Source: Corallococcus macrosporus DSM 14697 (lineage in GTDB: Bacteria > Myxococcota > Myxococcia > Myxococcales > Myxococcaceae). Taken from it: a stretch of 64,000 bases of DNA. The notes beneath the pieces were generated by a model. That model did no database searches, was not told the DNA's origin, and worked only from the letters and a program-made list of their open reading frames with translations. Both the position numbers and the translations under genes were made by a program. Within the stretch, counting starts at the first letter, position 1; every line of letters begins with the position of its first letter. This document shows, piece after piece, positions 30,873 through 35,073 of the stretch. Where the stretch lies: assembly GCF_002305895.1 (NCBI RefSeq), contig NZ_CP022203.1, forward strand, positions 2,148,501 through 2,212,500. Reading direction: 5' to 3'.

Positions 30873-31433
30873 GGAGACTCCCCACTGGAGCTTGCCTGCG
30901 GTAACAACCGCGGCAAGGTGGCGGCCCGACCACCGAGGAACCTGTGCGTGCCAGGAGCGCGACGCACACCCTTCGAGATGTGTGGTCATCGTCTCATGAC
31001 GTGATGCTTCAAGCCACGGAAACCTTGTGGGCCGGGCGCCAGTCGTTCCACGGCGACTGACGCGCGGTGGGACAACGCCTGCCTTGATGGGCTGGGGCCA
31101 AGACTGACGTTCCGCTCGCGCCGCGGCGTGCAGAGGTTCGGCGCGCTCCGATCGGCGATGGCCTGCTCCGCGCCCAGAAAAGTTGACCAGTCAAACGATG
31201 GACTCCGTGTGAATATGGTCTTCTCCCTGTGTGTGTCGCGTGATGTCAAATGCAGTCGTTTCGAAGCCATGCGTCATGCCGCGCCGCGCCGATTGGTGTG
31301 ATATGCATTGCGTCATCTCCCAGACACACAGGCTCCGCGAGGGTTTGCATTCATGATGGCTGCTGCAAGAGGTAGCCTTCGCGCCGCGTCGAAGGGGACG
31401 ACTCCTCGCGACGCAGACCGAAAGGAAAACACC
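30873..31433. other. 560-bp divergent intergenic region before the peptide gene
   Basis: It must carry promoters for the glycosyltransferase and for the Cys-rich peptide operon. Frames on both strands are short and lack start signals. It is locally more AT-rich near 31190-31320. I could not assign promoter boxes with confidence. Confidence 0.4.
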
Positions 31434-31592
31434 ATGAAGACCCTCAAGGCGCTGTCTGACCGCCTCCTGAAGCTGTTCCTGTCTGAGATTCCCGCGGGCG
31501 CCTGTGTCCCGGAGAACGGCCAGTGCTGCTCCGCGAAGCACCGTCGGTTCAACTGCTACGGCTCCTGCATCAGGACCTCCGTCTGCGGCTGA
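31434..31592 (+). CDS. Six-cysteine small peptide precursor
   Basis: A 52-residue peptide from ATG 31434 with AAAGGAAAA upstream. The first 23 residues form an amphipathic Leu/Lys leader (LKALSDRLLKLFLSEIP) ending in AGA, which meets the -3/-1 rule for a type I signal peptidase. The remaining 29 residues hold six Cys with spacing C-x6-CC-x8-C-x3-C-x5-C, which could form three disulfides. The next genes encode a MauE-like protein, a thioredoxin, an ABC exporter and an S26 signal peptidase, so it is probably their substrate. I recognise no known bacteriocin or toxin family. The coding call rests on the RBS, codon use and context. Confidence 0.72.
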   Translation: MKTLKALSDRLLKLFLSEIPAGACVPENGQCCSAKHRRFNCYGSCIRTSVCG

Positions 31593-31662
31593 TTCCAGCT
31601 TCATGACCCCGGCTGGATGTGGACCCTCCACGTCCAGTCGCGGTTTTCGCGAGGACGCTCCG

Positions 31663-32226
31663 TTGAACGCGGTCAATCTAGGCTGTCGACTGATGCTGGC
31701 CACGGTGTTCGCGCTCGCCGCGCTGGGGAAGGCGCGCGGACGCAGGCCTTTTGATGAGTTCATCCAGACGCTCGAAAACCTTGGTTTTCCGCGCGCCCTG
31801 GCCGGGGCGCCGCTGGCGGCCACGTTGGTCCTGACGGAAGCCGCCTCCGCGCTGCTGCTGGGGGTGGGCGTGGCGGCGGGGTATGCGCTGGCGCTGGCGC
31901 TCCTGGTGGGCTTCACGCTGGGGATCGCGTGGGTGATGCGCCGGGGAGAGAAGGTCGCGTGCCGGTGCTTCGGTGCGAGCAACGCCCCCGTCGGCGCGGC
32001 GCACCTGGTCCGCAATGGGCTGCTCCTGGCGGTCACGGTCGCCGGTGCGGTGAGCCACCCGTCCGCCTCCGGTGGACTGGCGATGGGCATGGGCGTCATC
32101 GCGGGGACGGTCGGCGTCCTGGCGGGGCTCTTCGTCACGCGCTGGGATGATCTGGTGTTCCTGCTTCGAGGACCGCAGCCGCTGGCCGCGTCCCCGCGAA
32201 CCCGACGAAACCGAGGCAGCCAATGA
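31663..32226 (+). CDS. MauE/DoxX-like redox-associated membrane protein
   Basis: A 187-residue protein with four hydrophobic helices (LMLATVFALAALGKA, ALLLGVGVAAGYALALALLV and others). The conserved cysteine pair is in VACRCFGAS. MauE with MauD is needed for disulfide formation in methylamine dehydrogenase small subunit; MauE-like proteins recur beside membrane thioredoxins. TTG 31663 has GAGGA seven bases upstream and places the first helix at the N-terminus; ATG 31603 is an alternative with no ribosome binding site. It overlaps the next gene by four bases. A role in oxidising the six-Cys peptide is inferred. Confidence 0.8.
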   Translation: MNAVNLGCRLMLATVFALAALGKARGRRPFDEFIQTLENLGFPRALAGAPLAATLVLTEAASALLLGVGVAAGYALALALLVGFTLGIAWVMRRGEKVACRCFGASNAPVGAAHLVRNGLLLAVTVAGAVSHPSASGGLAMGMGVIAGTVGVLAGLFVTRWDDLVFLLRGPQPLAASPRTRRNRGSQ

Positions 32227-32744
32227 TTGAAACGCTCGTCGTGGGTGGTGTCATCCTCTCCGTGCTGGTGGTGGGGAACCTCTTGCTGACCCTCGCGCTC
32301 GTCGGTCGGCTGCGCGCGCTCCAGGAGTTGATCGCCAACCAGGTCGTCCTTCGCGACCCGGCCCTGCCGCAGAAGGGAGAGCCGGTCGGCTCCTTCGAGG
32401 CCACCACCCTGGAGGGCGAAACCTTCACGGACGCCGTCCTGCGCGAGGGCAAGACGCTGGTCGGCTTCTTCACCACGGGCTGCCGGCCTTGCTCCTCGTT
32501 GCGCAAGCAACTCGTCGACTCGCCGCCCGGAGTGCCGCTGATGGCGTTCGTCGAAGGCGACCCCGACGACCCGCAGACGCTGGAGCTGGGGGCCTCGCTG
32601 AAGCAGGTGGCCCGGGTGGCGTTCCTGACCGAAGGGGACTCCGTCACGCGCGCCATCAAGCAGGCGGGCTATCCCACCCTCGTGCTCGTCGAGCGGGGCG
32701 TGGTCGCGGCCTCGGGGCACCACCTGCACGAAGTCCTGCCATGA
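32223..32744 (+). CDS. Membrane-anchored thioredoxin-fold protein (TlpA/MauD-like)
   Basis: A 173-residue protein with one N-terminal transmembrane anchor (LVVGGVILSVLVVGNLLLTL) and a periplasmic thioredoxin fold. The active site is TTGCRPCSSLR, a CRPC motif, and the cis-Pro loop is AGYPTLVLV. It overlaps both neighbours as ATGA, so it is made in step with the MauE-like protein and the exporter. MauD-type proteins reduce or isomerise disulfides. Here it probably sets the disulfide pattern of the small peptide. Confidence 0.86.
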   Translation: MIETLVVGGVILSVLVVGNLLLTLALVGRLRALQELIANQVVLRDPALPQKGEPVGSFEATTLEGETFTDAVLREGKTLVGFFTTGCRPCSSLRKQLVDSPPGVPLMAFVEGDPDDPQTLELGASLKQVARVAFLTEGDSVTRAIKQAGYPTLVLVERGVVAASGHHLHEVLP

Positions 32745-34597
32745 GCGAGGCGCGAGGGGGCCTGCGGGAGCTGACGCGCACGGTGGGGGCGGCCGTGGCG
32801 CTCCAGTGGCGCGCGGCCCCGCTGGCGTCGGTGTTCGCGCTCCTCCTCACGCTGTGCACCGGCTCCGTGGCCGCCGCGGGCGGCTGGCTCACCAAGGCGC
32901 TGCTGGATGAGCTGGGCCGAGGGGCCCTGGCGGACTCCCAGCGGGCGCTCACGCTGGCGGTGGGCGCCGCCGCGGTGGTCGGCGGCTCCATGGCCATCCT
33001 CAATGTCTCCGAGTATCTGACTGGCGTGATTCGCTGGGGCGTCACCCTGGAGGTGGAGCGCCGCCTCTTCACGAAGGTGGCGGCGCTGGAGGGCCTGCAC
33101 CACTTCGAGGACCCCGCCTTCCACGGCCGCCTGCGGCTCGCGGAGGAGGCCGCCCGGGACGCCCCCCAGCAGCTCATCGAGTTCGTGAAGGCCACCCTGC
33201 GCATGCTGGTCACGGTGGGGACGCTGAGCGCCGTGGTCCTGCTGGTGTCGCCGCCCATGGCGCTGCTGCTGCTGCTGGCGGGGGGCGTGGCCCTGCTGGC
33301 CCAGCTCGTGCGCAGCCGGTGGCTGGTGGAGCTGGCCGTGGCGCTGGTGCCGACCTATCGCTGGCGCGACTTCTACCACGCGCTGCTGGTGGACGTGCGG
33401 GCGGCCAAGGAGAGCCGGCTGTTCGGGCTGGGGGACCTGTTGCTGGAGCGGATGGTGGCCTCGCTGCGCAAGGCGGCGGACCGCGAGCTGGCCGTGACGC
33501 GCAAGGGGTTGGCCGTGCAGGCGGCGCTGTCGCTGCTCACGGCCGCGGTGGCGGCGGTCGGGTCCTTCATCGTCGCCCGAGGCGCGCTCCAGGGGCGGCT
33601 CCAGCTCGGAGACGTCTCCCTCTTCCTCGCGGCCGTGGCGGGCATCCAGGGGGCCTTCAACGGGCTCCTCGCGCAGGTCGAGTTCGCGGGCCGCAGTGTC
33701 CAGACCTTCAAGCACTACCTCGACATCATCGCCCTGCCAGTCCACGCGCCGGAGGCGTCACGGCCGGTGGCGCCGCTGAGGCACGGCGTGGAGCTGCGCG
33801 ACGTCTGGTTCCGCTATGACGCCCAGGGACCGTGGGTGCTGCGCGGGGTGAGCCTCTTCATCCCGGCGGCTGGCTCGGTGGGGCTCGTCGGCGTCAACGG
33901 CGCTGGAAAGAGCACGCTGGTGAAGCTGCTGTGCCGCCTCTATGACGCGGAGCGAGGCCAGATTCTCTGGGACGGCGTGGACGTCCGCGAGCTGGATGCG
34001 CGCGCGCTGCGGCGGCGGATGACGGCGACCTTCCAGGACTTCATGACGTATGACTTCACCGCCGCGGAGAACATCGGGCTGGGGGACCTGGACCGGCTGA
34101 AGGACGAGGCGCGAATCCGCGACGTGGCACGGCTGGCGGAGATTGACGAGAAGCTCGCCTCACTCCCCGCCGGCTACCACACGCTGCTCAGCCGCGTGCT
34201 CGAAGGGGAGGACGAGGACATGCCCGCGGGCGTCTCGCTCTCCGGAGGGCAGTGGCAGCGATTGGCGCTGGCGCGGGCCCTGATGCGCCAGGACGTCGAC
34301 CTGCTGGTGCTGGACGAACCGAGCTCCGGCCTGGACGCCGCCGCCGAGTTCCACATCCACCGGACGCTGGCGCGCCACGGCGAGGGAAGGGCGCGGCTGC
34401 TCATCTCCCACCGGATGAGCGCGCTGCGGAGCGCGGACACCCTCTTCGTCCTCTCCGAGGGGCGCATCATCGAGCAGGGCTCGCATGACGCGTTGATGAC
34501 GGCGGGCGGTGAATACGCGCGCTTGTTCACGCTCCAGGCGAGCGGCTATCAGGACGAGCGCGTCGCATCACGGGCGGGCCAGAAGGAGGTCGCATGA
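32741..34597 (+). CDS. ABC exporter (fused membrane and ATPase domains), peptide-export type
   Basis: A 618-residue type I exporter half. Six helices occupy residues about 25-320. The ATPase domain shows Walker A GVNGAGKST, Q-loop TFQDF, signature LSGGQWQRLALARAL, Walker B DLLVLDEPSSGLD and H-loop ISHRMS. There is no N-terminal C39 peptidase, so leader removal must be by another protein; an S26 peptidase gene overlaps its 3' end by ATGA. It would act as a homodimer in the inner membrane. The substrate is inferred to be the six-Cys peptide. Confidence 0.93.
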   Translation: MSEARGGLRELTRTVGAAVALQWRAAPLASVFALLLTLCTGSVAAAGGWLTKALLDELGRGALADSQRALTLAVGAAAVVGGSMAILNVSEYLTGVIRWGVTLEVERRLFTKVAALEGLHHFEDPAFHGRLRLAEEAARDAPQQLIEFVKATLRMLVTVGTLSAVVLLVSPPMALLLLLAGGVALLAQLVRSRWLVELAVALVPTYRWRDFYHALLVDVRAAKESRLFGLGDLLLERMVASLRKAADRELAVTRKGLAVQAALSLLTAAVAAVGSFIVARGALQGRLQLGDVSLFLAAVAGIQGAFNGLLAQVEFAGRSVQTFKHYLDIIALPVHAPEASRPVAPLRHGVELRDVWFRYDAQGPWVLRGVSLFIPAAGSVGLVGVNGAGKSTLVKLLCRLYDAERGQILWDGVDVRELDARALRRRMTATFQDFMTYDFTAAENIGLGDLDRLKDEARIRDVARLAEIDEKLASLPAGYHTLLSRVLEGEDEDMPAGVSLSGGQWQRLALARALMRQDVDLLVLDEPSSGLDAAAEFHIHRTLARHGEGRARLLISHRMSALRSADTLFVLSEGRIIEQGSHDALMTAGGEYARLFTLQASGYQDERVASRAGQKEVA

Positions 34598-35073
34598 TGC
34601 TCACGGCGATGGGCGCGGGGGCCGCGCTCCTCGTGGCGGGAGTCGCGGCGGCGGCCTGGGGGCGCCGCCGCTGGGTGGTCGTCGCGGTGCGGGGCAACAG
34701 CATGTCGCCCACGCTGCACGACGGACAACGGCTCGTCGCGAGGCGGTTGGGCCGCGCTCCCGCGCCGGGGAACGGGTATTCGCGCTCCGACGTCGTCGTC
34801 TTCGTGCTTTCCGCGAAGCAGCGCGAGACGCTGGAGGCCGAAGCGCTGCCCTATCTCGTCAAGCGGGTGGCCGCCGTGGCGGGAGACCCGGTGCCGGACT
34901 GGGCCCGGGCGGCGCTCGGTGCCGACGATGATTCGCGCGTCCCACCCGGGAAGGTCGTGGTGTCGGGAGACAACGCTCGGAGCCAGGACTCGCGGCAATT
35001 GGGCTACATCGACGCGGAGGCCATCATCGCCGTCGTGCGGCTCCGGGGGCCGGAGCCTTCGCGAACAGGGTAG
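34594..35073 (+). CDS. S26-family signal peptidase
   Basis: A 159-residue protein with an N-terminal hydrophobic segment (MGAGAALLVAGVAAAAW) and signal peptidase I boxes: GNSMSPTLHDGQ with the catalytic Ser, YLVKRVAAVAGD with the catalytic Lys, and VVVSGDNARSQDSRQLGYI. It is shorter than housekeeping LepB and lacks the second transmembrane helix. As the last gene of the ATGA-overlapped operon it is likely dedicated to one substrate, presumably cutting the peptide precursor after Ala23. That cut site is inferred. Confidence 0.88.
   Translation: MMLTAMGAGAALLVAGVAAAAWGRRRWVVVAVRGNSMSPTLHDGQRLVARRLGRAPAPGNGYSRSDVVVFVLSAKQRETLEAEALPYLVKRVAAVAGDPVPDWARAALGADDDSRVPPGKVVVSGDNARSQDSRQLGYIDAEAIIAVVRLRGPEPSRTG

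Follow-up and report, generated by a model that had tools for sequence, protein, structure and literature searches.

On balance, a transferable five-gene cassette in the genome of the myxobacterium Corallococcus macrosporus DSM 14697 seems to produce a secreted, disulfide-rich ribosomal peptide, which would be oxidised and cut on the cytosolic side of the inner membrane and only then exported. A wider reading, to which we give as much credence as doubt, is that it represents a hitherto uncharacterised two-phylum class of peptides whose disulfides would be formed on the cytosolic side by a relay of MauE and thioredoxin that faces inwards, and whose leader would be removed there by an S26 peptidase that likewise faces inwards or is soluble, the finished mini-protein being exported afterwards. 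The cassette lies in a stretch of 64,000 nucleotides that was analysed as a whole (hereafter, the window), and comprises the following features:

31434-31592, plus strand: precursor peptide gene of 52 codons, encoding a 23-residue leader (MKTLKALSDRLLKLFLSEIPAGA) and a 29-residue six-Cys core (CVPENGQCCSAKHRRFNCYGSCIRTSVCG)
31494-31505, plus strand: predicted S26 cleavage site AGA↓C (residues 21-23 before the putative cut, residue 24 after it)
31605-31645, plus strand: RNA hairpin directly 3′ of the peptide stop codon (fold z -4.8)
31663-32226, plus strand: MauE-family membrane protein, TTG start, CxCFG motif at residue 100
32223-32744, plus strand: thioredoxin-like protein with an N-terminal anchor, CRPC and a cis-Pro
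32741-34597, plus strand: ABC exporter with fused transmembrane and ATPase domains and no C39 domain; Walker A GVNGAGKST, signature SLSGGQ, Walker B LLVLDEP
34594-35073, plus strand: S26-family peptidase with conserved Ser (GNSMSPTL) and Lys (KRVAAVAGD) and, in this genome, an N-terminal membrane anchor

A preliminary description of this DNA had proposed a 52-codon six-Cys gene followed by genes for MauE, a CRPC thioredoxin, an ABC exporter devoid of C39 and an S26 peptidase, the last four joined by ATGA overlaps. All five are indeed present at 31434-35073, and the three overlaps linking the MauE, thioredoxin, ABC and S26 genes are exact. The peptide frame is preceded by AAAGGAA, a good ribosome-binding site. 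The MauE gene, invisible to an ATG-only search because it starts with TTG (31663), encodes a member of Pfam family PF07291 (1.6e-21, 77.4 bits, gathering cut-off 27), and CxCFG is present in every MauE found. The thioredoxin falls below the threshold of PF00085 by sequence (E 0.005); both active-site Cys and the Pro are invariant in 12 diverse homologues, and the predicted model of a Lentzea MauE-thioredoxin fusion homologue adopts a ResA/TlpA-type thioredoxin fold. The exporter matches ABC_tran (8.4e-26), and its Pfam matches are limited to this and related ATPase entries, which bears out the claimed lack of a C39 peptidase domain. The last protein matches Peptidase_S26 (PF10502, 5.2e-18).

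The precursor is the only peptide gene of its kind in the whole genome according to a genome-wide search, and it has no relative in Pfam, NCBIfam or the PDB sequences; two matches to p53 were attributed to chance. Its leader is conserved and amphipathic. Among close relatives, dN/dS is 0.23 for the leader and 0.71 for the core, values that indicate purifying selection on the former and faster evolution of the latter. The leader MKTLKALSDRLLKLFLSEIPAGA is broken up by K, S, D, R and K, so that no hydrophobic h-region exists and the peptide should not be a Sec signal-peptide substrate of signal peptidase I. The AxA motif before the first Cys is invariant in peptide sets A1 and A2, and reads ADA in L068. 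The predicted product has 29 residues and, with its six Cys engaged in three disulfides, a computed monoisotopic mass of 3171.31 Da. Judging from sequence, a conserved leader, a faster-evolving core and clustered maturation and export genes are all found here, as in a RiPP-like class.

As for the fold of the core, the peptide model is of low confidence (pLDDT 67.6, with the core at about 80 and a small predicted hairpin) and has no PDB match; consequently, it supports no particular disulfide pattern. The inhibitor cystine knots, or knottins, have the Cys order C-C-CC-C-C, whereas that of the six-Cys core is C-CC-C-C-C. That disulfides form at all is suggested by the parity of the Cys residues, described below, together with the redox genes of the cassette.

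Directly after the peptide gene, the hairpin at 31605-31645 is more stable than expected, none of 200 shuffled sequences being as stable. A strong hairpin occurs at the same place in 24 of the 24 peptide-MauE intergenic regions that were folded, in both phyla, and the hairpin sequences are unrelated between the two. In myxobacteria, double-sided changes affect 7 of its 18 pairs, and this signal is lost when the pairs are slid. It is not a T-tailed terminator; rather, it is probably an attenuator or transcript stabiliser that yields more precursor than enzyme.

The preliminary description covered one locus. The cassette is not a single case: it recurs, far more than chance would allow, among soil bacteria of two distant phyla, both in Myxococcaceae and in Actinomycetota. 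Within the order, a search of 145 genomes located the peptide in 11 species, and the intact order peptide-MauE-thioredoxin-ABC-S26 was recovered in 10 Myxococcaceae, i.e., this genome and nine others, two of the genomes of this family carrying tandem peptide copies. The six Cys of the window peptide are invariant among intact myxobacterial copies. One copy (G065) has two Cys beyond the six; this 8-Cys core, with a Gly/Ser-rich tail (CRSGSGSGCYG; L025, 8095-8280), corresponds to an expansion of the core within the family. Close (at least 70%) relatives of the ABC exporter all adjoin a peptide gene in the myxobacterial set, except for one decayed locus (G115). Thus, machinery devoid of a Cys-rich frame, or a lack of conservation of the Cys, either of which had been put forward as fatal to the proposed substrate, was looked for in this set and not encountered.

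The distribution across the order is patchy, and the homology with DNA of relatives breaks off at the two edges of the cassette (about 31.23-31.42 and 35.04-35.07 kb), which together suggest that the cassette, about 3.8 kb long, moves as a whole. An upstream glycosyltransferase gene is also common to relatives, the homology ending at about 30.9-31.04 kb. No clean empty insertion site was found, as no relative sharing this glycosyltransferase covers the downstream flank. On the minus strand of the window, at 30916-30971, an Rfam nhaA-I riboswitch-type element (45.7 bits, gathering 37) stands directly upstream of a GT28/EryCIII-like glycosyltransferase gene, and not of a sodium antiporter.

Two natural deletions behave like experiments tying the peptide to the machinery. 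In G101, the eleventh species with the peptide, the four machinery genes have been lost to an internal deletion, and the hairpin behind the peptide gene now runs straight into the last codons of the S26 gene; the peptide keeps a readable frame, having lost both Cys1 and the P1 Ala (AGA to AGD). In G115, it is the peptide and most of MauE that are missing. A second case of natural decay was observed in Lentzea waywayandensis (L068), with a frameshifted thioredoxin and a fragmented ABC gene next to a peptide that has kept its six Cys and ADA↓C. Neither an evident immunity gene nor any shared extra gene was found at the cassettes.

When GTDB genomes were scanned with the peptide alignment, 16 actinobacterial loci emerged outside the myxobacteria, in Lentzea, Actinosynnema, Kibdelosporangium and Nonomuraea. 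Their machinery genes and gene order match those of the myxobacterial cassettes, except that the machinery is broken in L068 and that L071 has no MauE. Family-level searches added more divergent actinobacterial members, whose cores have 4 Cys (L123, L124), 8 Cys (L126, L130, L131), 10 Cys (L125) or a different 6-Cys pattern (L127), and in which the style of the leader is retained and the first Cys directly follows an AxA-like site (VGA in L130). Altogether, about eight distinct core types exist. The number of Cys in intact cores is always even (4, 6, 8 or 10), as would be expected if disulfides form, and the sole odd count, 5, belongs to the decayed copy of G101.

Furthermore, gene order varies among these loci: the peptide comes first in most of them and last in L126 and L127, and MauE is last in L130 and L131. 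That the genes nevertheless stay together points to a functional linkage rather than to shared ancestry of the neighbourhood alone. MauE is absent from three clusters, namely L071 (Kibdelosporangium), L128 and L125, the last of which encodes 10 Cys and has no MauE nearby; the core set would accordingly consist of peptide, thioredoxin, ABC exporter and S26 peptidase. In Lentzea and Actinosynnema, on the other hand, MauE and thioredoxin are fused into one gene. A search of 396 actinobacterial genomes with the thioredoxin profile produced one new full cluster (G223), with an 8-Cys peptide of the same leader style. This cluster (L163, 6174-8616) contains two thioredoxins, the first with CPSC and the second, beside MauE, with CGPT and hence devoid of the second active-site Cys. 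S26 was absent from the weaker matches of the same search (L164-L168), which were set aside as other thioredoxins. In one of them (L165, 6202-8618), an ABC ATPase has an anchored thioredoxin and a MauE-like gene (C-x-CFG) as neighbours, and no S26 or Cys-rich frame was found there; it is possibly another use of the MauE-thioredoxin pair. Two weak peptide matches (L132, L134) were dropped for want of machinery nearby. The peptide profile gave only marginal extra matches over an even sample of Actinomycetota, and no peptide cassette was found in viral contigs, nor any plasmid with the Lentzea MauE-thioredoxin.

In the scheme that we favour, the core would be oxidised where the inner membrane meets the cytosol, by the CxC of a MauE that is probably linked to quinones and by the CxxC of the anchored thioredoxin. 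The S26 peptidase would cut AGA↓C from the cytosolic side, and the C39-less ABC exporter would carry out the cross-linked core of about 29 residues as the last step. Oxidation, cleavage, export, membrane orientation and the order of the steps are all inferred from sequence, the orientation in particular from K/R charge statistics and a simple hydropathy scan. Eighteen actinobacterial S26 proteins (108-129 aa) have neither an anchor nor a signal ahead of the catalytic domain, with which they begin. The start codons of their genes mostly overlap or abut the ABC stop, and no hydrophobic segment lies in frame upstream of these starts; at L069 the automatic gene call begins further upstream, and the real gene is likely as short as the others. 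Lacking any anchor or signal, these enzymes should stay in the cytosol. In turn, the flanks of the S26 anchors contain no K/R before and 48 after the hydrophobic segment (16 loci), and those of the thioredoxin anchors none before and 89 after (35 loci). In MauE, K/R are concentrated in loop 1, loop 3 (the CxCFG loop) and the C-terminus, and in the Lentzea/Actinosynnema fusion two transmembrane helices separate CxCFG from the thioredoxin, leaving both on one side. The charge pattern is reversed in two controls, an exported thioredoxin in L166 (MTKRRTIRIAG...) and the LepB of this genome. These charge patterns would place the thioredoxin domain, the CxC loop of MauE and the anchored S26 domains on the cytosolic side. 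The preliminary description had assigned leader removal to S26 enzymes as proteases that cut signal sequences. Removal of the leader by S26 is retained here as a prediction; the implied cleavage outside the cell is not, given a non-Sec leader and 18 unanchored enzymes, and the cut is probably cytosolic.

The most serious alternative, possible and yet distinctly less probable in our estimation, is maturation outside: the ABC exporter would translocate the leader-bearing peptide, which would then be oxidised by thioredoxin and MauE and cut by S26 at the outer face. The closest folds to the modelled thioredoxin domain are the extracytoplasmic reductases ResA and CcmG, and the usual location of these homologues and of TlpA outside the cell is the main counter-evidence to a cytosolic orientation; S26, moreover, belongs to the signal peptidase I superfamily, and AGA↓C is a classic signal-peptidase site. 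The cytosol is also reducing, and stable oxidation there would need protection or coupling to export. Against an outer location stand the absence of anchor or signal in the 18 actinobacterial S26 proteins, a K/R pattern opposite to that of the exported controls, and the fused MauE-thioredoxin, whose CxCFG and thioredoxin share one side with positive loops. Nothing usable was found in the open literature on how MauE and MauD are oriented, or on disulfide-forming enzymes of inverted orientation.

A second alternative concerns the fate of the thiols rather than the side of the membrane. The peptide could bind copper or zinc, the redox pair keeping its Cys reduced for metal loading before export, and cores with 4-10 Cys would suit such a role. 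MauE weakly matches HvfX of copper-binding RiPP clusters (E 5e-4), yet at 20 bits against a cut-off of 80. Moreover, Cys numbers are strictly even, the cassette has no other metal-RiPP enzyme, and metal sites would favour CxxC or CxC cores, which are absent from the six-Cys family; we consider this reading improbable. Finally, the lack of a database family for the peptide might suggest that the small frame is a mere neighbour of a general exporter operon, which is very hard to reconcile with co-conservation across two phyla in several gene orders, a leader under purifying selection and a peptide that decays once its machinery is deleted. The claim that the other four genes serve the peptide as their substrate is therefore upheld by this co-conservation, by six conserved Cys in even parity and by the joint decay in G101.

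If maturation is cytosolic as we favour, helper enzymes working inside the cell before export would be unusual, the MauE-thioredoxin pair would offer a portable means of forming disulfides within bacterial cells, and the result would bear on the question, still poorly understood, of the side on which MauE/MauD act in methylamine dehydrogenase maturation. The class has a defining signature, i.e., a leader, AxA↓C and an even number of Cys beside MauE, thioredoxin, ABC and S26 genes. Its products would be genetically encoded mini-proteins rich in disulfides, each core having 4 to 10 Cys. Such a format is prized for its stability, and bacterial examples have rarely been described.

Several known systems resemble this one in part. 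Within the open-access literature, the only close prior art found was decRiPPter, which flagged three uncharacterised Streptomyces candidate families as proposed RiPP clusters, in which mauE (in one case together with mauD) neighbours a small Cys-rich precursor that has 8 or more Cys (PMC7794033). The preliminary description had put the system forward as a candidate undescribed one; this holds for the peptide, which matches no curated family, and not for the association of MauE with a Cys-rich precursor, already noted there (PMC7794033). Compared by description only, the cassette shares MauE with these candidates, the window core having 6 Cys and some relatives 8-10, and the account of the Streptomyces families names no S26 (PMC7794033). 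TMcin of Staphylococcus aureus establishes that devoting a thiol oxidoreductase, a protease and an ABC exporter to one disulfide peptide is a real strategy, with unrelated proteins: its precursor is transmembrane and has one disulfide, its oxidase is DsbA-type, its protease S2P-type and its ABC type V-like (PMC13252029).

The Ni-SOD peptidase SodX (TIGR02754) is likewise a small S26-type enzyme that removes the N-terminus of one cognate protein, but its substrate is an enzyme and it has no dedicated exporter; the S26 of the window scores 24.5 bits and that of Lentzea 36.2 bits (6.4e-9) against this model, both below the curated cut-off of 63.25. Methylamine dehydrogenase maturation also uses a MauE-family protein and an anchored thioredoxin partner, whereas the cassette lacks methylamine dehydrogenase genes, has a tiny peptide as its presumed substrate and sometimes fuses the two proteins. 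With C39 (double-glycine) bacteriocin export the cassette shares a leader peptide and a dedicated ABC exporter, but membership was rejected because the exporter has no C39 domain and the site is AGA↓C, an AxA site for a separate S26 protease, rather than GG. What is new here is the occurrence of S26 proteins devoid of anchor or signal in 18 actinobacterial loci, together with charge patterns that point to the cytosolic side. The product would thus be of a known kind, a ribosomal peptide with dedicated maturation, and its mechanism may be categorically unusual.
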